A DNA stretch of 64,000 nucleotides. Source: Actinomycetota bacterium (GTDB lineage: Bacteria; Actinomycetota; Actinomycetes; Propionibacteriales; Propionibacteriaceae). Under the pieces are notes generated by a model. That model saw nothing but the letters and a program-made list of their open reading frames with translations. It made no database searches and had not been told where the DNA came from. A program made the translations under genes and the position numbers. The stretch spans positions 56,780 through 120,779 of the forward strand of contig JAIUOS010000010.1 of assembly GCA_020161755.1 (NCBI GenBank), written 5' to 3'. Position 1 is the stretch's first letter; each line of letters begins with the position of its first letter. Positions 7,130-63,945 of this stretch are shown one piece after another.

Positions 7130-7238
7130 GGACCAAAAGGGGACTGTCCCCTTTTGGTCCGGTCAGGTGGACCGAAAGGGGACTGTCCCCTTTTGGTCCG
7201 GTCAGGTGGACCGAAAGGGGACTGTCCCCTTTTGGTCC
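7130..7238. repeat. Class A REP array, three units, 39 bp period
   Basis: Three 31 bp palindromes (7130-7160, 7169-7199, 7208-7238) separated by the octamer GGTCAGGT. Each has arms GGACCRAAAGGGGAC / GTCCCCTTTTGGTCC around a central T on this strand. All three point the same way. The array lies between convergent genes and its last linker contains the stop codon of pyc. Confidence 0.95.
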
Positions 7239-10737: not shown

Positions 10738-10804
10738 GGACCGAAAGGGGACTGTCCCCTTTCGGTCCGGTGAACGGGAAGGGGACGGGTCCCCTCTCCG
10801 TTCC
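10738..10804. repeat. Class A REP plus a degenerate partner
   Basis: An intact 31 bp class A palindrome (10738-10768, central T) is followed 4 bp later by a degenerate palindrome with arms GAACGGGAAGGGGAC / GTCCCCTCTCCGTTC (10773-10804). The pair lies 43 bp past the stop of the large surface protein and upstream of pyc. A close REP pair could form one long hairpin. Confidence 0.85.
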
Positions 10805-10846: not shown

Positions 10847-13800
10847 CTACGCCTGGCGCCTACTCCTCCGCGCGCCCACCAGGGCGGCGCCGAGCAGCAC
10901 CAGCAGCAGGCCCGAGCCGATCAGCCAGGGCAGGCCGACGGTGCCGGTGTAGGCGAGGCTGCCAGCGGCCGCGGTGATCTCCAGGGGTGCCTGGTCGTCA
11001 TTGTCGGTCGCCGTGTCAGCGGTGTCGGTATCGGTGTCCGGCAGGGTGCCGAGCGGGTTCGCCTCGACGGCGTCCACGGCAGAAGGCCCGACGTAGGCGA
11101 CGTTCCACAGCGTGCCCTTTGCGCCGGCTTTCACCTTCGCGGTCACGGTGATCACCGGACCGTCCGCGCCGGCGGCCAGCGGCTCGTCCGCGGTGCACGT
11201 GGTGCCCGAGCACGAGTAGCCCTCGCCCTCCATCGACACCAGCGTGAGCTGGCTGGGCAGCACATCGGTGACGGTCCAGGAGTCGAGCGACCAGGACGGG
11301 CCGTCGTTGTGCGGCACCAGCGTGTAGGTGACGGTGTCGCCGACACGCACCTTGCCGGACGTCTCCAACGTCTTGGTGAGCGACAGGTTGTACCGCACCA
11401 GGCCGACGTCGATGGTCGGGTCGTCCTCACCGCGCGGGGTCACGACGTTGTCGCCGCTCATCGGCGTGGTGAACAGCACGTCGCCGGCAAGGTCGGCGTC
11501 GGAGTCGGCGTCGTCGTCCACCAGGTCCGCGCCGGTGAAGCTGTAGCCGTCCGGCTGCACGAAGTGCATCCGGTACTGCTCGCCGGGCAACAGGTCGGCG
11601 AACCCGTAGTAGCCGTTGGCGTCGGTGACGTCGGTGGCGAGCAGGTTGCCGTCCATGTCGTACAGCCGCACGGTGATGCCCGGCTCCAACGGCTCGTCGG
11701 TGTCGAACGTGCCGTTGCGGTTGTTGTCCATCCAGACGAAGTCGCCCACGCTGACCAGCTTCAGCAGGCCGGCGTCGATCGTCGGGTCGTCCGGGGTGGT
11801 CGCCGAGTTGACGCCGCTCGCCGGCGCGGTGACGCTGACCCGACCGGTCGTGACGTCGGCGTTGGAATCGGCCGCAGCGTCCACACCGCTGTAGGTCTGG
11901 TAGGTGAAGGCGGTGTGGGCCGGCTTCACGAACTCGACCACGTACCCCTTGCCCGGCACCAGGTCGGTGAACGAGTAGAAGCCGTTGGCGTCGGTCGTGG
12001 TGGTCGCCACCAGCGTGGTGCCGTCAGCGGCGTACAGGTTCACCACCACATCGGGCACGACCTCCTCATCGTCGCCCTGGGCGCCATCGCGGTTGGTGTC
12101 CCACCACACGTAGTCGCCGATCGAGACCAGGGAGTCGACCTGGAGGTCGGCCTGGGCGTCGTTGTCGGTATCGGTGGTGTCGGTGGTCGTGCCGGTGTTG
12201 GGCACGACGAGCGGGTTGGTCTCGACCACGTCACCGGCGGCGGGCGACACGTAGGCCACGTTGTGGGCGCTGCCCACGAAGTCGCCGTTGATCGTCGCCA
12301 CCAGCGTGATCGGCGCCCCCGAAGCCCCGGCGGCCAGCGCCGCATCGGCGGTGCAGGTCGCGCCCGAGCAGGTGTAGCCCGTGCCGGTCATCGAGACCAG
12401 GGTGAGCCCGGTGGGCAGGACGTCGGTGACCGACCAGCCGGCCAGCGCGAAGGCCGGTCCGTCGTTGCTCGGCACCAGCTGATAGGTGACCGTGCCGCCC
12501 TCGTAGTACGGTCCGGAACTCGTCAGCGTCTTGGTGAGCTTCAGGTTGTACCTGACCACGCCGGCGTCGATCGTCGGGTTGTCGGCCTGGTTGTGGCCGG
12601 TCCGGTTGGCGCCGGTGGCCGGGGTGGTCACTGCGGCCCGTCCGGTGCCGGTGTCGGCGTCGCTGTCGTCGGCGTCGGTGGTCAGGTTGTTGTCGCTGAC
12701 CCCGGACACGTCCTGGGTGGTGAACGCCTCGCCCGCCTGCTTCACGAACTCCACCGCGTAGTCGGTGTTCGCTTCCAGATTGGCGAAGACGTAGTAGCCC
12801 GCGTCGTCGGTGGTGGTGGTCGCGACCAGGTCGCCGGACGCGTCGTACAGGTGGACGACCATGCCGGAGTAGACCGGCTCGCCGGCGCCCTGCAGCCCGT
12901 CGCGGTTGTTGTCGTACCAGACGAAGTCACCGATGCTCACCAGCGGCGAGATCAGCACCTGCGCCTGCGCGTCGTTGTCGGTGCCGGTCCCGGTCGTGTC
13001 GGTGGCCAGGGTGGGCACCGCCAGCGGGTTGGTCTCCTCGATGTCGGACGGCGCCTTCGAGATGTAGGCGACGTTCTTCAGGGTGCCGGTCGCGGTGTCG
13101 TCCACCGTCGCGTGGACGGTGATCGCCGGGCCGTCGGTGCCGCGCGACAGCGGGTTCGCCGCCACGCAGGTGCCGACCGTCGTGGTGCAGTCGTACGCCG
13201 CACCACCGTCCATGTCGACGAAGGTCAGCCCGGACTGCAGCGGCAGCACCTCGCTGACCGACCAGCCCGCGAGTGCGTCCACCGGGCCCGCGTTGTGCGG
13301 GGTGAGCACGAAGGTCACCGTCTGGCCGAGCCGCACGAGACCAGGGGTCTGGAGCACCTTGGACAGCTGCAGGTTGTAGGCGATGAAGCCGGCGTCGATG
13401 CCCGGGTTGTCGGCCTGGTCGTGGCCGCCGAGGTTCTTGCCGTTGCTGCCCGTGGTGAACGTCACCTTGCCCATGGAGGCGCCGGACGCCGGGGCGTCGG
13501 AATCGGTCAGGTCGGTGGTCGCGCTGTTGGACGTGTCGCCGGTCGAGTCGGCGACGGTGAAGATCGCACCGTCCGGACGGATGAACTCGATCGTGTACTG
13601 CGTGTCCTCGCCGAGATCGGTGAACGCGTAGTAGCCGTCCGCGTCGGTCGTGGTGGTGTCGAGCAGTTCACCGTCGGCGTCGTACAGGTTGACGGTGACG
13701 CCGGCCGCGACCGGCTCACCGGCGTCCTGGACGCCGTCGCGGTTGTTGTCGTACCAGGTGTAGTCACCCACCGACACCATCGGACGCGGCACGATCAGGC

Positions 13801-16800
13801 CCGCGTCCAGGGTCGGGTCGTCAGCGACATCGTGGCCGATCGCGTTGGTGGACGTGGCCGTCCAGGCCGGCGTGGTGAAGCTCAGGGTGCCGTCGGACGG
13901 GTTCACGTCCGAGTCGATCGCGTCGTTCTTGCCCTTGTTGCGACGCGTCCAGTCGTAGCCGGACGGCTTGTCGAAGGTGAGGGTGTAGGCGGTCTTCTCG
14001 GGCAGGTCCTTGAACCCGTAGTAGCCGTCCGCGTCGGTCGTCGTGGTCGCCACGACGTTTCCGGAGGCATCCTTCAGGGTCACCTTCACACCGGCGGCCG
14101 GCAGCTCGGTGCCGTCCTGCTTGCCGTTGTAGTTGGCGTCGTACCAGACGTAGTCACCGATGCTCACCAGCGGGGCGGCGATGATCACGCCGACCTTGCG
14201 CGGCTCGGTCGGCAGCAGCCGGGTGGTCGAACTGTCCGCGTTCACCTGGAAGACGCGCTGGGCGGCCGAGTTCCACGCGACCGACAGGTCGACGGTGGAG
14301 CCGTCGATGGTCGACTTCGGCGAATCGGCCGGAGCGGTCATCGGGACGTGGAACACCATCCGGGTGGCGGGCAGGAACACGCCACCGTTCTGGTAGGCCT
14401 TGATCCGGTACGACTTGACCGCCGACCAGTCAGTGATCTGGCTCTCGGTGAACCAGGTGCTGTCGCAGGCGCCGCCCTGCCAGTCCGCATCGCTGCCGCC
14501 CTCGGCCAGTTCCGGCCGGCACGGGTTGGTCGTGAGGTTGTACTCGACCACGGCGTTGTGACCGGCGGCCGTGGTCAGGGAGCCCTCCAGGGTGATCGGC
14601 CCGGCCAGCACCGGCGTCCACTCCGACTTGCGGGCCGACGTGCTCAGGTTGGCGCCGACGCCGGTGTCACCGACGTAGGGGAGGATGTCGTAGACGACCT
14701 CGTTGGTGAGGTTCACGTTGCCCTGGTTGGCGATCTTGACCCGGTAGTCGAAGGTGCCGCCGGGCGTGGTCTGCGCCACACACGGGTAGCGCGTGTAGCC
14801 GTTCCAGTCCGGGCAGCTCGCCGACGCCTTGCCGGTTGACTGGCTCACGTTCTCACGAGTGCCCATGTCCCACTTCTGGATGCCGACGGCCGCGATCCTG
14901 GCCACCGTCACCGCATCGCTCGCCTCACAGGTGCCGTCGGCGTCGAGCGTGTCGCCGTTGCCGCAGTAAACGGCGTCGGTGAAGTCGTCCGCCTTGACCG
15001 ACATGGTGTTGCTGTAGTCGCCGGGGGTGACCCCGTCCTTGACCTGCACCCGCAGGTGGATCTGGTAGGTCCAGTCGCCGTCGCCGGTGGCGGGAAGTGC
15101 CGGATCGGTGAAGGTGAGCTTCGTGGAGCCGTCGCCGAGGGTCTCGGTGGTGTAGGCCGGCTCGGTCGCGTCCGACGCGCAGCCGGACGTGGGCGAGCCC
15201 CAGTAGGACCGGTAGTCCAGGCAGGGCACCGAGGACGCCACCAATTCGAACTCCTTCGGGAGCACGTCGGTGATCGTCAGCTTGTCGACCGGCATGGACG
15301 CATCGGTGTTCACCCCGAGCACCCACTCCAGGGTGTCGCCGGGCGCGGCGGTGCTGCCGGAGACGACGTTGCCGTCCTCGTCGGTGAAGAAGTGGGTCTT
15401 CACCGGGCGGATGCGCACCGCGTCCGGTTCGACGGTGCTGTTCGCGCACGCATGGGTGGCGGGAGCGTCGCTGGTGGTGTCGATGCAGTTGTCCACCCGG
15501 TCCCCACCCTGGGCGTCGGTGTCGACGACAGCCTTCAGCGAGAAACCGGTGTAGCCGTCGATCGGCAGGTTCGCACTGGTCATCCGCACGTACTTCATGC
15601 CGACCGGAACCGTCTGCGGGTCGTTGGTCTTGCCGTTCTGCCAGGTGAAGCCGGGCACCCAGGTGGTGCCGTCGACGCTGTACTCGAAGGTCGCCTTCTC
15701 GCCGCTCGCCGAGGTGGGCTGCCACCAGTTGTCGCTGGAGAAGATCGTGAGGTCGTGGACGTGTGCGGGCAGTGTGTCGACGATCGAGTAGTCGTCGATC
15801 GTCACGTTGCCGGAGTTGTGGTTCCACACCGTCCACTTGATCGTGCCGCCCGGGGTCGGGTTCACGCTCGACCAGCGCGACTTGCTGCTGTCCAGCTTCG
15901 GAGTCGGATCGGCCAGCGTGACGCCGGCGGACGCCTCGAGCGTCCCGGTGGGGGAGGTGGTCTCGCCGGTGTTGTAGGTGACGTCCGCCGAGGCGGTGTT
16001 CACCGGCTTGTCGCCGGCGTCGTAGTCGGCGTCGGGGTACTGGACGGTGACGTAGGCGGCGTAGGAGTTGCCCTTCGGCGACAGGTCCGTGCTGGTCGGC
16101 AACGTGAAGGTGACCTTGCCGGCCGAGTAGGTGCCGGTGGTGGACGGGTTCTCCGTCCACGCCTTCACGAACTGCGCTCCCGCCGGCAGGGTGTCGGTGA
16201 TGGTGGCGTCACTGATCGGCACGCCGCCGGAGCTCTTCGTCCGGTAGAGGTCGAGCTTGTAGGTCACGTCGGTGCCGACGGCCGGCGAGACGCCGGACGG
16301 CGGCCACACCCTGGTCTTCTCGAACTGCCAGTCGATCACCGGCTTGTTGACCGTGATCGTGACGGTATCGGACGTGGCCGTCTCGTCCTGCGCCTTCACC
16401 GTCGCGGTGTTGGGCACGGTGAGACCAGCATTGCTGGGCACACCGGTGACGGTGGCGCTGATCACGATCTCGAGCGTCTCGCCGTCCATGAAGTAGTTGG
16501 ACTCGTCGTCGTCCTTGCCAATGGAGAAATCGAGGGTGTTGCCGTTGCGGTTCAGCGAGATGGGCGCGGTCGAGGTGTCCTCGCCGTTGGCGATCCGCGT
16601 GACCGAGTAGGTGTCGAACGTGAGGTTCGGGTCGAGCTGGTCGGTCAGGGTCGCGGTCTGGCAGGGCACGGTGAGGCTGTCGCACTTCACCCGGATGCGG
16701 TAGGTGACCGGGTCGCCGACGTCGTAGGAGGACTTCTTGTCGTCGATGCTCTTGTCGATGCCCAGCTTGAACTCCGCGGCGTGCGCGGGGGAGGCCGCCG

Positions 16801-34159: not shown

Positions 34160-34190
34160 GGACCGAAAGGGGACAGTCCCCTTTCGGTCC
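34160..34190. repeat. Class A REP, central A
   Basis: Perfect palindrome GGACCGAAAGGGGAC-A-GTCCCCTTTCGGTCC upstream of the terC leader. Orientation is opposite to the array at 7130. This is the one copy found in a divergent 5' region rather than at a gene end. Confidence 0.95.
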
Positions 34191-37097: not shown

Positions 37098-38135
37098 TCA
37101 GCTCCAGTCGAGGATCACCTTGCCGCACTCGCCGCTGCGGGCGGTGGCGAAGGCCTGCTGCCACTCCGAGGCGGGGAAGCGGTGCGTGATGACCGAGCGG
37201 ACGGCGTCCGCGAACGCCGGAGAGGTGGCCAGCATCGAACTCATCAGGTACCAGGTCTCGTACATCTCGCGCCCGTAGATGCCCTTGATGGTGATCATGT
37301 GGGTGATCACCCGGCCCCAGTCGATCGGGTAGGGGTCCTTGGGCAGGCCGAGCATCGCGACCTTGGCTCCGTGGTTGAGGTTGGCCAGCATCTCCGTCAC
37401 CGCGGACGGCGACCCCGACATCTCCAGGCCGATGTCGAAACCCTCGAGCATGCCGAGCGAGGACTGGGCGTCCGCGATGCGCTCGGTGGCGACATTGATG
37501 CACAGGTCGGCGCCGGCCGCGCGGGCCAGGCCGAGCCGGTAGTCGCTGACGTCGGTGACGACCACGTGCTTGGCGCCGGCGTGGCGGACGATGGCCGCCG
37601 CCAGCACCCCGATCGGACCCGCCCCGGTGACGAGCACGTCCTCGCCGACCACCGGCCATTGCAGCGCGGTGTGGGTGGCGTTGCCGAGGGGGTCGAAGAC
37701 GGCGCCCAGCTCGGGGTCGATGGCGTCCGGCTGGAGCCAGACGTTGGACGCCGGCAGCACCACGTAGTCGGCGAAGGCGCCGTCGGTGTTCACGCCGAGC
37801 CCGACGGTGTGGATGCAGACGTGCCGGCGTCCCGCCCGGCAGTTGCGACAGCGTCCGCACACGATGTGGCCCTCACCGGACGCCCGGTCGCCGGGTTTGA
37901 CGCCGGTGACCTCCGGGCCGACCTCGACCACCTCGCCGTAGAACTCGTGGCCGATGACCAGCGGGGCCTGCACGGTGGAGGCGGCCCAGTCGTCCCAGCT
38001 CTCGAGGTGCAGGTCGGTGCCGCACAGGCCTGCGCGCATGACCCGGATCTTGACCTGGTCGGCCCCACAGGCGGGCTCGGGGACCTCGATCAGCTCCAGC
38101 CCGGGCCCCGGAGCAGTCTTCACCAACGCGCGCAT
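37098..38135 (-). CDS. tdh: L-threonine 3-dehydrogenase
   Basis: Zinc medium-chain dehydrogenase of 345 residues that oxidises L-threonine to 2-amino-3-ketobutyrate with NAD. Catalytic zinc site GLCGTDLHLESWDDWA and GHEFYGEV, structural zinc cysteines CGRCRNCRAGRRHVC, and the Rossmann motif VTGAGPIGVLAAAI. The sequence pattern LHLESWDDWA is typical of threonine rather than alcohol dehydrogenases. First gene of the tdh-kbl operon. Confidence 0.95.
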   Translation of the reverse strand: MRALVKTAPGPGLELIEVPEPACGADQVKIRVMRAGLCGTDLHLESWDDWAASTVQAPLVIGHEFYGEVVEVGPEVTGVKPGDRASGEGHIVCGRCRNCRAGRRHVCIHTVGLGVNTDGAFADYVVLPASNVWLQPDAIDPELGAVFDPLGNATHTALQWPVVGEDVLVTGAGPIGVLAAAIVRHAGAKHVVVTDVSDYRLGLARAAGADLCINVATERIADAQSSLGMLEGFDIGLEMSGSPSAVTEMLANLNHGAKVAMLGLPKDPYPIDWGRVITHMITIKGIYGREMYETWYLMSSMLATSPAFADAVRSVITHRFPASEWQQAFATARSGECGKVILDWS

Positions 38136-38167
38136 GCCCTCACGCTATCGCCGCCCGCGCCCACCCC

Positions 38168-39010
38168 CTACCCCGCGCACGGATCAGGAGCAGCGGACCA
38201 AAAGGGGACAGTCCCCTTTTGGTCCGCTTGGGGCTCCTCATCGACCCGAAGCCCGGCCACCTGAACTCGCTTGAGACGAGTCGCACTCCAGCCGGTGATC
38301 CTCGCGAGCTGCGCATAGGGAACCGACCGGGTCCGTAGCTCGCGGATGGCCCGAAGCTGCGCTCCGGCATCAAGGATCCCGAAGTCGTCCGGGCCAGTCG
38401 CCCCGCAAGCGTTGCGGAGCAGATCGCCTGCGTCCATCTCGGAGTACAGGGCCGGACGTCCGGTCTTGGCACCGTCGAACCGTGCTGCTGGATCTGGGCC
38501 AGGCAGCGGACCGTCGAGCACCTCGGCCGGCACGAGTCGTTCGAGAGTCGCGCGGTCGAGCAGGCCCGCGTCCCGGCCCAGCGGTGAGCGGCTGCTCCAC
38601 GGATAGTCCTCCGCACGCGCCACCATGCCCGCTTTCACCGGGTTGTTCCACACATAGCGCAGGAGGGTGATGAGGTAGGCATCGTCCTCCACCGGCAGGC
38701 TGGCGAAACGGCTCTCGAACAGGTGCCCAACTCGCGAGTACTTGCGATTGAACCAGCCGACATAGCGGACGCCGAGCCGCTTCATCACGAGGCTGATCGG
38801 TTCGTCGGGCGTCTGGACGACGAGGTGGACATGGTTGGTCATGAGGCAGTACGCCAGCACCAGGCAGCCGGACGCCGTCTTCGCCTGAAGGAGAGCGTGG
38901 AGGAAGCGCTCGCGATCCTCGTCCTCGAGGAACACCGCGTCCCGATTAACTCCGCGCAACATGACGTGGTAGAGCTTGGTCTCGGCGAGTTGCCGTGCAC
39001 GTCGAGGCAT
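38168..39010 (-). mobile_element. REP-associated tyrosine transposase (RAYT, Y1_Tnp family)
   Basis: 280 residues from an ATG preceded by AGGAGG. HUH motif NHVHLVV near residues 58-64, candidate catalytic Tyr in YVGWFNRKY near 83-91, then GHLFESRFASLP and LRYVWNNPVKAG, which mark the RAYT/IS200-like group. A helix-turn-helix (YAQLARITGWSATRLKRVQ) follows near 235-255. The gene lies between two class A REPs in inverted orientation, and its last 20 residues (including DQKGTVPFWS) are encoded by the downstream REP itself. It probably nicks or moves class A REPs. Domains look intact, so the protein may be active. Confidence 0.93.
38193..38227. repeat. Class A REP flanking the RAYT gene (3' side), central A
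   Basis: Perfect 35 bp palindrome with arms GCGGACCAAAAGGGGAC around a single A. It lies inside the 3' end of the transposase reading frame. The arms are 2 bp longer than at the distant copies. Confidence 0.97.
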
Positions 39011-39115
39011 GCGTCCTCCTGTCGGGGTGGATCGAACGATCGTAGGAACAACGACAGCGGCGCAGGGAGACCTCTCCGACCAATCTGTGGATAACTTCTT
39101 CGCGCGCGGCGGAGC

Positions 39116-39146
39116 GGACCAAAAGGGGACTGTCCCCTTTTGGTCC
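39116..39146. repeat. Class A REP flanking the RAYT gene (5' side), central T
   Basis: 31 bp palindrome GGACCAAAAGGGGAC-T-GTCCCCTTTTGGTCC, 105 bp upstream of the RAYT start. The central base shows that it is inverted relative to the 3' copy, the layout of a REPIN-like unit around its transposase. Confidence 0.97.
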
Positions 39147-39151
39147 ACCAC

Positions 39152-39200
39152 CGCTAAGAACGCGTCAAAGTCGGACGCGGGGGCGCTAAGGAACCGTCAA
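39152..39200 (+). promoter_or_regulatory. Tandem response-regulator sites upstream of kimA
   Basis: Direct repeats CGCTAAGAACGCGTCAA (39152-39168) and CGCTAAGGAACCGTCAA (39184-39200), 32 bp apart or about three helical turns. OmpR/KdpE-type regulators bind such phased direct repeats, and a KdpE-like regulator is encoded two genes downstream. The first site begins 6 bp after the REP. Confidence 0.6.
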
Positions 39201-39241: not shown

Positions 39242-41323
39242 GTGACCACCTCGTTCCGGGTTCCCAAGCGACTCCTCGTCGGCAACCCGATGCGCTCGGC
39301 CCAGTTGGGCGAGACCCTCCTGCCCAAGCGGCTCGCGCTCCCCGTGTACTGCTCGGACGCGATCTCGTCCAACGCCTACGCTACCCAGGAGATCCTGCTC
39401 GTCCTGGCCCTCGGCGGCGCCTCCATGGTGCTGCTCACCCCGTGGATCGCCCTCGCCGTCGTCACCCTGCTCGCCCTGGTGACCCTGAGCTACCGGCAGA
39501 CCTGCTACGCCTACCCCGACGGCGGCGGCGCCTACGCGGTCTCCCGGGCGAACCTCGGACGCCACGCGTCCCTGGTCGCCGCGGCCGCCCTGATGGTCGA
39601 CTACGTGATGACCGTCGCGGTCTCGATCGCGTCCGGCGTGGAGAACTTCGTCTCCGCCTTCCCCGGCCTCGCGCCGTACAGCGTCGAGCTGTGCATCGGC
39701 TTCATCCTCGTCCTGACCGTGATGAACCTGCGCGGCGTCCGCGAGTCGGGGACGGCCTTCGCCATCCCCACCTACGGCTTCATCATCAGCGTCTACGTGA
39801 TGCTCGGCGCCGGCTTCTGGAACGCGCTCAACGGCCACACCCCGGTCGCGGAGTCGGCGAACCTCGGCTTCACCAACGTCAGCCCGGCCGGCGCGGCGCT
39901 GATCATCCTGATCCTGCGCGCGTTCGCGTCCGGCTGCACCTCGCTGACCGGCGTCGAAGCGGTCAGCAACGGCGTCCCCACCTTCCGCAAGCCCAAGACC
40001 CGCAACGCCTCGATCACCCTGCTGCTGATGGGCGCGATGAGCATCGTGATGATGGGCGGCATCGCCGTGCTCAGCACCATGACGAACCTGCACATCGCCG
40101 ACAGCATGGACGAGCTCACCAACGTCCCGGCCGGCTACGAACAGCGGACGGTGCTCGCCCAGCTCTCCGCCGCCGTGTTCGGCAACAACAGCCTCGGGTT
40201 CTTCGCCGTCCAGGGGTTCACCACCCTGATCCTGGCGCTGGCCGCCAACACCGCCTTCAACGGCTTCCCGATCCTCGCCTCGATCCTGGCCGAGGACAAG
40301 TACATGCCCAAACAGCTCGGACGCCGTGGCGACCGCCTGGTGTTCAGCAACGGCATCATCATCCTGGGCTCGGTCGCGGCCGGCCTGATCATCGCGTTCA
40401 ACGGCTCGGTCACCCGGCTGATCCAGCTGTACATCCTGGGGGTGTTCGTCTCCTTCACCCTCAGCCAGACCGGCATGGTCGTCTACTGGTGCCGCCACGC
40501 CCGCGAGAACGGCTGGACGCCGAAGCTGATCGGCTCGATGCTCGTCAACGGCGTCGGCGCCCTGGCCACCGCCGTCGTCCTCGGCATCGTCCTGCTCACC
40601 AAGTTCACCCACGGCGCCTACCTGGTCGTGATCGCGATCCCGGTGCTGTTCTTCGTCATGCTGCGGATCCACCGCCATTACCAGCGGGTCTCGCGTCAGC
40701 TGATGCCGAAGGCGGCCGGCATCACCCTGCCCAGCCGCATCCACGCGGTGGTGCTGATCAGCCAGCTCAACGAGCCGTCGCTGAAGGCCCTCGCCTTCGC
40801 CCGGGCGATCCGGCCGAGCACGATCACCGCCCTGCGCGTCGACACCAACCCGGTGCGCACCGCCAAGCTCGTGCAGGAGTGGTCGGCCCGCGACATCTCG
40901 GTGCCGCTGACGATCGTCACCTCCGCCTACCGCGACCTCACCGAGCCGGTGCTGGACTACCTCGCCAAGATCCACGTGGGCCCGCGCGACGTGGTGCAGG
41001 TGTTCATCCCCGAGTACGTGGTGGGCCACTGGTGGGAGCAGTTGCTGCACAACCAGAGCGCCCTGCGGCTGAAGACCCGGCTGCTCTACATGCCGGGCGT
41101 GATGGTCACCAGCGTGCCCTACCAGCTGCGCTCGGCCGAGCCCTACGTGCTCGAGCGTCCCGGTGCGGACGCGGACGTGGCCGTGCCGCCGCGGTCCGCC
41201 GTCCGTCCGTCCGCCGAGGCCGAGCCGGTCCCGGTGCCGGCCGTGCCGCCGACGCTGCCGGGGGCGCCCGAACCGGCCGCCGGCGACCGTCCGACGCGTC
41301 CCGGCGCCCTGATCGGACGCTGA
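39242..41323 (+). CDS. kimA: KimA-like high-affinity potassium transporter (APC superfamily)
   Basis: 693 residues, about 12 membrane helices to residue 480, then a cytosolic domain (RIHAVVLISQLNEPSLKALAFA, ITALRVDTNP) and a Pro/Ala-rich tail. The opening VPKRLLVGNPMRSAQLGETL, SDAISSNAYATQEILL and YRQTCYAYPDGGGAYAVS match KimA (YdaO) potassium-proton symporters better than amino acid permeases. A kdpD-like kinase and kdpE-like regulator follow on the same strand, which supports potassium as substrate. GTG start with AGGAG twelve bases upstream. No c-di-AMP riboswitch was seen in the short leader. Confidence 0.82.
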   Translation: MTTSFRVPKRLLVGNPMRSAQLGETLLPKRLALPVYCSDAISSNAYATQEILLVLALGGASMVLLTPWIALAVVTLLALVTLSYRQTCYAYPDGGGAYAVSRANLGRHASLVAAAALMVDYVMTVAVSIASGVENFVSAFPGLAPYSVELCIGFILVLTVMNLRGVRESGTAFAIPTYGFIISVYVMLGAGFWNALNGHTPVAESANLGFTNVSPAGAALIILILRAFASGCTSLTGVEAVSNGVPTFRKPKTRNASITLLLMGAMSIVMMGGIAVLSTMTNLHIADSMDELTNVPAGYEQRTVLAQLSAAVFGNNSLGFFAVQGFTTLILALAANTAFNGFPILASILAEDKYMPKQLGRRGDRLVFSNGIIILGSVAAGLIIAFNGSVTRLIQLYILGVFVSFTLSQTGMVVYWCRHARENGWTPKLIGSMLVNGVGALATAVVLGIVLLTKFTHGAYLVVIAIPVLFFVMLRIHRHYQRVSRQLMPKAAGITLPSRIHAVVLISQLNEPSLKALAFARAIRPSTITALRVDTNPVRTAKLVQEWSARDISVPLTIVTSAYRDLTEPVLDYLAKIHVGPRDVVQVFIPEYVVGHWWEQLLHNQSALRLKTRLLYMPGVMVTSVPYQLRSAEPYVLERPGADADVAVPPRSAVRPSAEAEPVPVPAVPPTLPGAPEPAAGDRPTRPGALIGR

Positions 41324-43422: not shown

Positions 43423-43425
43423 CCC

Positions 43426-43657
43426 GGGGACGGTTCTCTCATCCGCCAGAATCCGGCGGGAAACGGGGACGGTTCTCAGATCCGCCAGAATCCGGCGGGA
43501 AACGGGGACGGTTCTCAGATCCGCCAGATTCCGGCGGAAAACGGGGACGGTTCTTAACTCGGTCCGGGACCGGATCAGGAACCGTCCCCAACTCGGTCCG
43601 GGACCGGATCAGGAACCGTCCCCAACTCGGTCCCGGACCGAGATAGGAACCGTCCCC
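43426..43657. repeat. Hybrid array: three class C units then class B units
   Basis: Class C units of 39 bp start at 43426, 43465 and 43504, each GGGGACGGTTCT plus the core ATCCGCCAGAATCCGGCGG. From 43543 the same GGGGACGGTTCT head is joined to class B cores (CGGTCCGGGACCG) with a 34 bp period to 43657. The two families are fused at the shared head. The array fills the gap between kdpE and the convergent DUF6891 gene and ends 2 bp before that gene's stop. Confidence 0.92.
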
Positions 43658-43659
43658 AA

Positions 43660-44382
43660 TCAGGCGGGCAGGGGCTTGCGCCAGTCATCGATGACGATTT
43701 CCAGTCGCTGTTGGGGATCGCCGTCCCATTCGACCCTCAGACCGCGGTTCCGCAGCGCGGCGGCCACCCGCTCGCCGGCCTGCGCGTCCGTGCGTGCGAT
43801 GACCTGCGCCCGGGCGTCAGCATCACCCGCCCGGGCGGCGGCCAGCAGTTCCGGGTCCAGGTCGGACGCCGCCCGCCACGCGCTGTAGGTGAGGAACAGC
43901 CGGGTGGGCGATTCGGCCAGCCGGTCGGCGTCCTGCTGGTGGAAGAACGTGTACTGCGACTCCCGGAACCCGTAACCGTCCGCGTCCACGGGGGTGCGTT
44001 CGGCATCGATCTCGTCGGTGCCGCAGGTGTTGCAGCAGGCGAAGTTCATCCGCGCGACCACCCCGTCCGCCTGGAGGTCGTCGAATGCGGCCCGCAGCCG
44101 GTCGTAGTCGGACGTCCCGCTCCAGGACGTCTCCTCCAGCTTGCGTTGCCGCCACACCTCGTCGACCACAGCCGCCGGTCTCGGGTCGGCCGCCTCCAGC
44201 TCGAACGACTCGCGCACGCTCTCGACCGCCGCGTCCCTGCCCAGGAACCCGGGCAGGACCGCCTGCCGTGCCGCGTCGCGCAGTTCGTCGGCCGTCACCG
44301 CGTCGTCCGGCGTCGCGTCCACCACCGGCCGACCGTCGTCGGAACTGCGTCCGCGACGGGTGAAGCGTTCGAACAGGCCCAT
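43660..44382 (-). CDS. DUF6891 family protein
   Basis: 240 residues from the ATG at 44382; the frame continues upstream through a REP but that part is REP-encoded. The family region covers EVWRQRKLEETSWSGTSDYDRLRAAF, the Cys cluster FACCNTCGTDEI near 125, QYTFFHQQDADRL and the C-terminal LRVEWDGDPQQRLEIVIDDWRKP. The Cys cluster may bind metal. Function unknown; I recall the DUF number from the NF-CC-CG / HQQD pattern and did not check it. Confidence 0.75.
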   Translation of the reverse strand: MGLFERFTRRGRSSDDGRPVVDATPDDAVTADELRDAARQAVLPGFLGRDAAVESVRESFELEAADPRPAAVVDEVWRQRKLEETSWSGTSDYDRLRAAFDDLQADGVVARMNFACCNTCGTDEIDAERTPVDADGYGFRESQYTFFHQQDADRLAESPTRLFLTYSAWRAASDLDPELLAAARAGDADARAQVIARTDAQAGERVAAALRNRGLRVEWDGDPQQRLEIVIDDWRKPLPA

Positions 44383-44402
44383 GACGCGAGGATAGGGCGT
44401 GG

Positions 44403-44433
44403 GTGGACCAAAAGGGGACTGTCCCCTTTTGGT
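44403..44433. repeat. Class A REP, central T
   Basis: 31 bp palindrome GGACCAAAAGGGGAC-T-GTCCCCTTTTGGTCC, extended by GT/AC on each side. It lies between the DUF6891 start and the RDD gene's terminator. Confidence 0.95.
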
Positions 44434-44443
44434 CCACCGGACG

Positions 44444-44477
44444 CAGAACCGGCCGGAACCCAAAGGTCCCGGCCGGT
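44444..44477 (-). terminator. Hairpin terminator of the RDD gene
   Basis: 11 bp perfect stem GAACCGGCCGG / CCGGCCGGTTC with a partly paired inner loop, 20 bp past the RDD stop. Confidence 0.75.
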
Positions 44478-57985: not shown

Positions 57986-58111
57986 GGCGGAAACCGGGGA
58001 CGGTTCTTCGATCCGCCAGATTCCGGCGGGTATCGGGGACGGTTCTTCGATCCGCCAGATTCCGGCGGAAACCGGGGACGGTTCTTCAAATCCGCCAAAA
58101 TCTGGCGGATA
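57986..58111. repeat. Class C REP array, 39 bp period
   Basis: Heads GGGGACGGTTCTTC at 57996, 58035 and 58074 separated by cores ATCCGCCAGATTCCGGCGG; the last core is degenerate (AATCTGGCGGAT). Same unit and period as at 43426. A further GAACCGTCCCC half-head sits at 58171, just before the fprA stop. Confidence 0.9.
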
Positions 58112-58187
58112 ATGGCCATCTCGCCCACCCGCCCCTGACAAGGCCTTTCGCCGCCGCGCTACGAATTTCGGAACCGTCCCCGGGGGG

Positions 58188-62928: not shown

Positions 62929-63921
62929 GTGACCGACACTGCACCTGTGCTCCTCGAGGACGAGGACGTCCGGATCGAACTCCTGCCGCTCGGGGCCACC
63001 GTCCGCCGTTTCGAGGTGCGGCTCGCGGACGGCACCTGGCGCAACATCGTGCTGGGCGCTCGTGACCTCGCCGACTACCGGGGCGCGTGCCGCTACCTCG
63101 GCGCCACCGTGGGCCGGTTCGCGAACCGCATCGCGGGGGGACGGTTCCGGCTCGACGAGGTCGTCTACATCGTCGACGTCAACGAGTCGCCGAACACGCT
63201 GCACGGCGGCGCGAAGGGCTTCGACTCGCTGGTGTGGGACGTGGCCGGACGGGGCGAGGGGTGGGTCGAGTTCAGCCTCGACAGCGCCGACGGCGATCAG
63301 GGCTTCCCCGGCGAGCTGATGGTCACCGCGCGCTACGAGCTGGTCGAGCACGGCGTCCAGGTGACGTACCGGGCCACCACGGACGCGCCGACGGTGGTCA
63401 ACCTGACCACCCACCCGTACTTCAACCTCGACGGAGAGGCCTCCGGCTCGGTGGACGAGCAGGTGCTGACCGTGCACGCGTCCCGGTACACGGTGAACCG
63501 CGCGGACGGGGTGCCGACCGGCGACTTCCGGGACGTGACCGGCTCGGCGGCGGACTTCCGGGGCGGACGCCGGCTCGGCGCAGCCCGCGACGCGGCGAAC
63601 GCCGAGGGCATCACCCGCGACGGGGGCTTCGACCACAACTTCGTGGTGGACGGCTCCGGCCTGCGCGAGCACTGCCGCCTGACCGGGACCGACGGGCTCA
63701 CCCTCACCGTGGTGAGCGATCAGCCCGCCGTCCAGGTGTACGGCGCCGAGCACTTCGACGGGTCGCAGATCGGGACGTCCGGGGTGCCGTACCTGCGCCA
63801 CGCCGGCGTGGCGATCGAGACCCAGGGCTACCCGGACGCGCCCAACCACGACAACTTCCCGAGCACCGAACTGTGGCCCGGCCAGGAGTACGTCGCCACC
63901 ACCCGCTGGCTCGTGGACTGA
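62929..63921 (+). CDS. galM: Aldose 1-epimerase (galactose mutarotase)
   Basis: 330 residues. Interconverts alpha and beta anomers of aldoses. Motifs: YLGATVGRFANRIAGGRF, NTLHGGAKGFDSLVW (catalytic His in LHGG), VNLTTHPYFNLDG (second His), GGFDHNFV and a Glu near the C-terminus in GVAIETQGYPDAPNHDNFPS. GTG start with TAGCGT eight bases upstream and no Shine-Dalgarno, so it may be leaderless. Its last codons and TGA are part of a class A REP. Confidence 0.94.
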   Translation: MTDTAPVLLEDEDVRIELLPLGATVRRFEVRLADGTWRNIVLGARDLADYRGACRYLGATVGRFANRIAGGRFRLDEVVYIVDVNESPNTLHGGAKGFDSLVWDVAGRGEGWVEFSLDSADGDQGFPGELMVTARYELVEHGVQVTYRATTDAPTVVNLTTHPYFNLDGEASGSVDEQVLTVHASRYTVNRADGVPTGDFRDVTGSAADFRGGRRLGAARDAANAEGITRDGGFDHNFVVDGSGLREHCRLTGTDGLTLTVVSDQPAVQVYGAEHFDGSQIGTSGVPYLRHAGVAIETQGYPDAPNHDNFPSTELWPGQEYVATTRWLVD

Positions 63922-63945
63922 AGGGGGACAGTCCCCTTTTGGTCC
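63915..63945. repeat. Class A REP overlapping the galM stop, central A
   Basis: Left arm GGACTGAAGGGGGAC is degenerate and contains the galM TGA (63919-63921); right arm GTCCCCTTTTGGTCC is intact. Confidence 0.88.

Follow-up and report, generated by a model that had tools for sequence, protein, structure and literature searches.

A 64,000-nt stretch of DNA from an actinobacterium of the family Propionibacteriaceae (assembly GCA_020161755.1, contig JAIUOS010000010.1, positions 56,780 to 120,779; hereafter the window) encodes a TIRYT-type HuH transposase that is flanked by its own palindromic ends. Judging from sequence comparison, the enzyme likely recognises these ends, together with hundreds of repeats built on a GGGGAC core, as single-stranded hairpins that it copies or moves. 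We favour this reading because the repeats share a core, because their arms differ by species yet stay largely self-complementary, and because the arms match those of the local gene in three of seven sampled genomes. The supporting observations are the gene itself, its inverted ends, the constant core, self-complementary arms that vary between lineages, these arm matches, a repeat abundance that tracks the gene, and orthologous sites that are either occupied or empty.

Transposase gene and terminal palindromes

The gene and its two ends are arranged as follows:
38168 to 39010, minus strand: TIRYT-type Y1/HuH transposase gene, 280 aa, with NHVH and Y119-xxx-NP motifs and a C-terminal helical extension
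38195 to 38225, minus strand: 3' terminal palindrome, class A (GGACCAAAA-GGGGACAGTCCCC-TTTTGGTCC on the plus strand), overlapping the 3' end of the open reading frame
39116 to 39146, minus strand: 5' terminal palindrome, class A, inverted to the 3' copy, with GGGGACAG reading toward the gene

The open reading frame starts at an ATG (N-terminus MPRRAR...) and matches Y1_Tnp (PF01797) at 1.4e-13, a domain detected in all 22 aligned relatives. Residues N59, H60 and H62 of the HuH motif NHVH and Y119, N123 and P124 of the YxxxNP motif are unchanged across the same 22 proteins, and structural comparison returned the HuH fold of E. coli TnpA-REP (4er8) as the best match. Helices occupy residues 191–252 of the C-terminal extension, where similarity to helix-turn-helix domains is weak: HTH_23 matches 13 of the 22 relatives (best 4.8e-4) and the window protein gives HTH_31 alone, at E 0.18. 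Pfam DnaA-C is absent from the matches shown for the 22 relatives, and the C-terminal part matches one entry among PDB sequences, 8vd6 (E 2.6e-6). The reading frame runs through the 3' palindrome, which encodes the peptide KGTVPF in its last codons; the same peptide occurs near the C terminus of the relative P0016.

The class A palindrome is 31 bp long (GGACCAAAA-GGGGAC-W-GTCCCC-TTTTGGTCC), and its 5' copy starts 105 bp ahead of the start codon. Its central base differs between the two flanking copies (T versus A), which reveals their inverted relation; in this, as in the positions of the reading frame and of both palindromes, the initial annotation was correct. The sequence GGGGACAG, found inverted at both ends of the gene, agrees with the GGGGWSAS consensus of TIRYT termini.

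The same annotation had labelled the gene a RAYT and its palindromes repetitive extragenic palindromic (REP) sequences. We rejected the label in its canonical, GTAG-type sense, since the palindrome is preceded by C or T in 38/38 GGACC-armed copies, with no GT[AG]G directly at the foot (an offset of one or two bases lies outside this count), and since the NCBI RAYT model NF047646 scores 69.8 bits, below its cut-off of 80. By published descriptions the enzyme best fits the TIRYTs (Di Nocera 2013) or TnpA-Y1 subclass 2.1 (Quentin 2018), our own tree comprising 27 family members only.

Dispersed repeats and the resident gene

The window holds nine class A copies at up to three mismatches, against none in 100 shuffles. 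The seven copies beyond the gene had been reported as seven loci; the number of copies stands, and they lie at five loci, because three of them form one array:
7130 to 7238, plus strand: tandem array of three dispersed class A copies (starts 7130, 7169 and 7208) with a 39-bp period
10738 to 10768, plus strand: dispersed class A copy
34160 to 34190, plus strand: dispersed class A copy
44405 to 44435, plus strand: dispersed class A copy
63915 to 63945, plus strand: degenerate class A copy with 3 mismatches

The window's draft genome (G000; 4.08 Mb in 61 contigs) contains 148 sites of the inner 21-mer at up to three mismatches and 147 exact 13-mer class A cores, with 0 in the reversed control of each, and the earlier suggestion that a resident repeat family accompanies the enzyme is borne out. 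A search of Rfam at gathering thresholds gave no match. We sampled 462 kb of this genome (the window and 20 further stretches, largely picked for holding repeats) and found 57 class A and 103 sister-family cores. By a simple home-made gene finder, 56 of the 57 class A copies do not lie wholly within predicted genes, while 85% of random positions fall inside. Convergent gaps between genes are favoured and divergent ones avoided (25 convergent, 24 co-directional and 6 divergent versus 47/125/70 available).

The sister family is defined by the 11-mer core GGGGACGGTTC, present 286 times in G000 (reversed control 2), and it brackets a second gene on the same contig, L017, which is 58% identical to the window gene and carries GGGGACGGTTCT at its ends. 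In all, the genome has two gene copies and 433 exact-core copies of both families. Among opposite-strand neighbours, sister cores stand in F-R order 17 times and in R-F order once, with the same polarity as at the genes; class A copies do so 5 times versus 1 and are mostly singletons or direct repeats. The description of the element as REPIN-like suits the sister family better than class A, although joint movement of two inverted repeats was observed in neither. Direct sister neighbours are spaced at 39 bp (32 pairs), 34 bp (20) or otherwise (2). The 39-bp unit has GGCGG/CCGCC arms, like the ends of L017, and the 34-bp unit, with arms GGACCGAGTT/AACTCGGTCC, resembles the ends of genes in two other genomes (L119 in G183 and L123 in G146). 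Three sister groups lie in the window:
775 to 851, unstranded: sister cores R-F-F, 34-bp unit
43426 to 43657, unstranded: sister cluster of GGGGACGGTTC cores, FFFF-RRR, 39-bp and 34-bp units
57996 to 58181, unstranded: sister cores FFF-R, 39-bp unit
The region 43423–44446 (~1.02 kb), made up of the sister cluster, a DUF6891 gene (43660–44382, minus strand) and a class A copy, is missing in G162, where the aligned flanks are 3–4 bp apart.

Across loci the core is constant. The search gave 34 matches, of which one in G061 (E 9e-4, residues 147–209 only) was not counted as a gene and four lacked a locus, so that 29 family loci remained; GGGGAC upstream and its inverse downstream occur in 27 of them and neither in L114 and L122 (G136). 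Outside the family, both GGGGAC ends are present in 30 of 73 loci and one or more in 53, and the best inverted repeat beats all 20 shuffles of its own flanks in 54. Polarity of GGGGAC is as expected in 125/139 instances in the family and 110/140 outside.

The arms vary and keep pairing with each other. With one end per locus picked by position, not quality, pairing is better between the 5' and 3' arms of one locus than between swapped arms, both in the family (mean 6.2 versus 4.6, n=27) and outside it (5.9 versus 4.7, n=53), and in neither group did any of 20,000 arm-swap permutations reach the observed complementarity; pairing varies by locus, and at a number of loci the own score is not above the cross mean. 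Among 12 hand-picked repeats sharing GGGGACAGTCCCC, one of them from Lachnospiraceae, 11 of 16 pairs show double changes, with 35 compensated cells against 13.1 +/- 2.9 after shuffling and at most 19 in slid alignments; 85% of cells are paired. In the tree, the genes with the core AGTCCCC (L016, L098 and L099) form a single clade with support 100/97.

Dispersed copies carry the arms of the resident gene in G000, G008 and G122. Both GGACC arms of the window gene are found on 36 of the 57 sampled class A copies in G000. GCAG arms are present in 8/8 sampled copies (of 46) in G008, as in L099, one of its two genes, and TGAAC arms in 17/17 sampled copies (of 48) in G122, as in its gene L106. G136, with 12 cores, lies outside the arm sampling.

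Repeat abundance tracks the gene in a family survey of 197 genomes, 19 of which have a match, with 18 counted as carriers and 179 as non-carriers. At least 20 copies of GGGGACGGTTC occur in 18/18 carriers (all with at least 25, up to 374) versus 7/179 non-carriers, the remaining 172 non-carriers having at most 15 each; within the window's genus alone, 14/14 carriers and 4/16 non-carriers are repeat-rich (Fisher p 2e-5). Three or more class A cores are found in 8/18 carriers versus 1/179 non-carriers. The initial annotation had proposed such a comparison as one that could overturn it, and in neither repeat family were copies equally common without the gene.

Farther afield, 92 of 396 genomes in a phylum sample match the alignment, and the 91 besides G000 are all labelled as of the same phylum and none as of the same class or order. 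In other phyla, GGGGACGGTTCT is present in 41 of 45 genomes carrying relatives, at 10 or more copies in 24 of the 45 (up to 190; reversed controls at most 3). These 45 were drawn from the 73 non-family loci partly for a recognisable inverted repeat, so 24/45 should not be read as an unbiased rate. In G040, a 100-kb stretch contains one element.

Orthologous sites differ in occupancy. The window gene has a zinc-type dehydrogenase gene (37098–38135; ADH_N 4e-28) on one side and an amino-acid permease gene (39242–41323; AA_permease_2 4e-27) on the other. The same junction has no transposase in G116 (85 bp) and G137 (212 bp), and in G162, G008 and G146 it holds a transposase in the orientation opposite to that in G000; compared with L175, L181 and L173, window positions 38136–39155 give the appearance of an inversion of the segment bounded by the inverted palindromes. 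In L172 (G137, where no transposase gene was found), another palindromic repeat, GAGGGCCAGC, occupies two compared intergenic sites. A 20-kb stretch, L155, has four class A copies at three sites that lack a class A counterpart in the aligned relatives (four, six and four genomes), and one of the three is occupied in G146 and G181 by GGGGAC repeats of other arm types. In L177 (G166), at about 1417–1501, the upstream gene is followed by a terminator-like hairpin that has a class A copy at its centre. Insertion into pre-existing palindromes was rejected as a rule, because the flanks of 38 copies in G000 are no more complementary than expected (1641 of 5000 permutations scored as high).

Proposed hairpin recognition and alternative explanations

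By analogy with E. coli TnpA-REP, the HuH domain (NHVH, Y119) would bind a folded single-strand repeat, cut one strand beside the hairpin and transfer the repeat; the E. coli and Stenotrophomonas enzymes provide the reported basis for binding, cutting and transfer of single-strand repeats, according to the passages on them in PMC8266576. A conserved enzyme surface may read the core, while the arms would give lineage specificity and hairpin stability, so that each enzyme serves its own repeats. Should the arms drift, the enzyme's ends and the repeat population would re-form around the new arms.

A further element lies in the leader of the gene:
39086 to 39094, minus strand: a DnaA-box sequence (TTATCCACA) at -84, downstream of the 5' palindrome and ahead of the start codon

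A T[TC]NTCCACA sequence is found at -76 to -91 in 21 of the 29 family genes, 19 of these being TTATCCACA or TTGTCCACA, at about 85 bp before the start codon; PMC4285127, with its table of box sequences, gives the two as the high-affinity DnaA boxes of E. coli and B. subtilis, and of M. tuberculosis and S. coelicolor. On the gene's strand TTRTCCACAG occurs in 16/29 leaders, with 1 on the other strand and 0.02 expected from shuffles, and the columns around the box are less conserved than the box. The whole of G000 has 37 TTRTCCACA against 13 in the reversed control, and two of them lie in the leaders of its two transposase genes. The box may tie expression of the gene, or binding by the enzyme, to chromosome replication, when single strands are exposed. 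Two results count against a general link of this kind: no box is found on the gene's strand in any of the 73 loci outside the family, so we regard it as a family trait, possibly shared in part by descent, and oriC was not located in G000, a simple motif check having found no DnaA protein at the two closest TTRTCCACA doublets.

A broader proposal, which we put forward tentatively and hold to be possible rather than probable, is that TIRYTs drive a superfamily of mobile hairpins that spans phyla and uses a split code, in which a GGGGAC core beside the loop (Actinobacteria, Firmicutes and Bacteroidetes) is combined with lineage-private self-complementary arms re-tuned together with the enzyme. 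In the actinobacterial family, the leader box would be where either the DnaA-like C-terminal part or DnaA itself acts, gating the system to replication.

Several observations weigh against the favoured reading. Seven gene-less genomes are repeat-rich (20 to 330 copies of GGGGACGGTTC), all in two of the three carrier-containing genera; incomplete assemblies or gene loss could lie behind these exceptions. Nine of the 57 class A copies in G000 have both arms of a GAAACG/GAAATG type that no TIRYT found there matches, and no gene in the assembly corresponds to the 34-bp sister unit. Copies in G122 share the arms but not the exact core of the L106 ends, the core of those ends being mostly GGGGACAGGTAC. 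In G169, where the contig breaks off at the orthologous gene site, the copies have arms similar to the GCAC arms of the G162 gene (both arms in 2/9, one arm in 4/9). Arms in G166 (6 copies) and G116 (2) match no TIRYT found there, and G017, with five class A cores and one sampled copy, yielded no gene. Nor do the 38 copies in G000 show palindromy in their flanks beyond the arms, and neither a target duplication nor an exact junction is readable at the orthologous sites, where the flanks are too diverged. Wobble in the arms is contradictory between groups (G.T 11 versus A.C 21 in the family, 25 versus 9 elsewhere), so we claim no strand specificity and leave room for recognition of double strands; palindromy by itself would also suit a dimer that binds duplex DNA.

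This last point leads to the likeliest of the alternatives, though we consider it unlikely: the palindromes would be double-stranded, operator-like sites for dimers of the C-terminal helix-turn-helix part and would owe their spread solely to being carried along by a conventional terminal-inverted-repeat mechanism. The fixed polarity of the terminal inverted repeats, the weak C-terminal similarity to HTH_23 and the inconsistent wobble are in its favour, whereas the Y1 fold aligns to transposases that act on single-strand hairpins and GGGGACGGTTC, by inspection, pairs via G.T on one strand only. Folding energy favours this GGGGAC strand in 38 cases versus 9, with 17 ties, when the best end of each of 64 loci is taken. 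Still less likely is that the host now retains the repeats to serve as bidirectional transcription terminators or as structures at mRNA 3' ends, with the gene as a domesticated bystander. Class A is enriched at gene 3' ends, its core is bordered by AAAA and TTTT, and the G166 copy lies inside a neighbouring gene's terminator-like hairpin, as such a role would have it; yet the repeats are nearly absent from most gene-less relatives and the arms follow the local gene in the three genomes named above. An ordinary IS200/IS605 insertion sequence with miniature derivatives would share the catalytic fold and the miniature F-R units with inverted ends but is highly improbable, being already contradicted by the motif (YxxxNP, not YxxxQ) and the copy pattern (two copies at 58% identity, not many identical ones), and the IS200 model scores 15.7 bits versus a cut-off of 55.

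Relation to known systems

This kind of element is already known from Di Nocera 2013 and Quentin 2018. The sections of Di Nocera 2013 on these elements (PMC3733652) name TIRYTs and the TIRtron and describe GGGGWSAS termini and families of moderate abundance, self-complementary in some cases. Quentin 2018 (PMC6006769), whose table equates subclass 2.1 with Bertels group 1, describes in its subclass sections no REP-like sequence near subclass 2.1 genes, DnaA-C-like domains in that subclass and only subclass 1.1 in Actinobacteridae; the rarity in actinobacteria noted in the initial annotation agrees with this account. The window element shares with these descriptions a Y1 domain with a C-terminal extension, low gene copy number and GGGGWSAS terminal inverted repeats, of which some recur across the genome and some are self-complementary. 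It differs in its actinobacterial host, in the 433 exact-core copies, in a DnaA box that sits in the leader, no box being described in the ends in those same sections, in arms shown to covary and to match the resident gene in three genomes, and in the commoner core GGGGACGGTTC, which breaks GGGGWSAS at position 7.

Like the RAYT/REPtron as presented in Nunvar 2010 (PMC2817692), the gene lies between two inverted palindromes that have further copies across the genome, and enzyme and repeats co-vary between lineages; unlike it, there is no GT[AG]G foot, and the constant motif borders the loop, in the hairpin's upper half, while the stem base varies. The E. coli TnpA-REP enzyme (4er8) has the same HuH fold but, in the description given in PMC8266576, relies on GTAG and a bulge, and class A has neither. 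With REPINs, as outlined in Bertels and Rainey 2011 (PMC3116915), the sister family has in common inverted pairs of fixed polarity, whereas class A is mostly single or direct, and direct-repeat arrays of 34 or 39 bp are common in the sister family.

Searches of the open-licence literature found GGGGACAGTCCCC, GGGGACTGTCCCC, two core 16-mers and KGTVPF in no paper, GGGGACGGTTC only in two papers with unrelated titles, nothing on RAYT groups in passages of PMC8049555, and, in titles and abstract starts, no paper on actinobacterial RAYTs. Those searches yielded none of what is added here: the covarying grammar of the hairpins, their partial agreement with local genes, the actinobacterial host, the number of copies and the DnaA box in the leader.

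The element bears on two questions about REP-type elements, namely what keeps a transposase matched to its repeat and how a repeat comes to change its identity. In G000, G162 and G008, related genes at one site have three arm sequences with palindromy kept, which makes a change of specificity testable by arm swaps, and the DnaA box is a concrete handle on the proposed replication link. The results also revise the statements that subclass 2.1 enzymes are without REP-like hairpins and that Actinobacteridae have only Y1 enzymes of the insertion-sequence type.

Two minor observations complete the survey. L018, from a Propionibacteriaceae metagenome-assembled genome, shares its flanks with L116 (G162, in the window's genus). 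Window positions 11090–14171 hold long imperfect direct repeats, probably a repetitive coding region.
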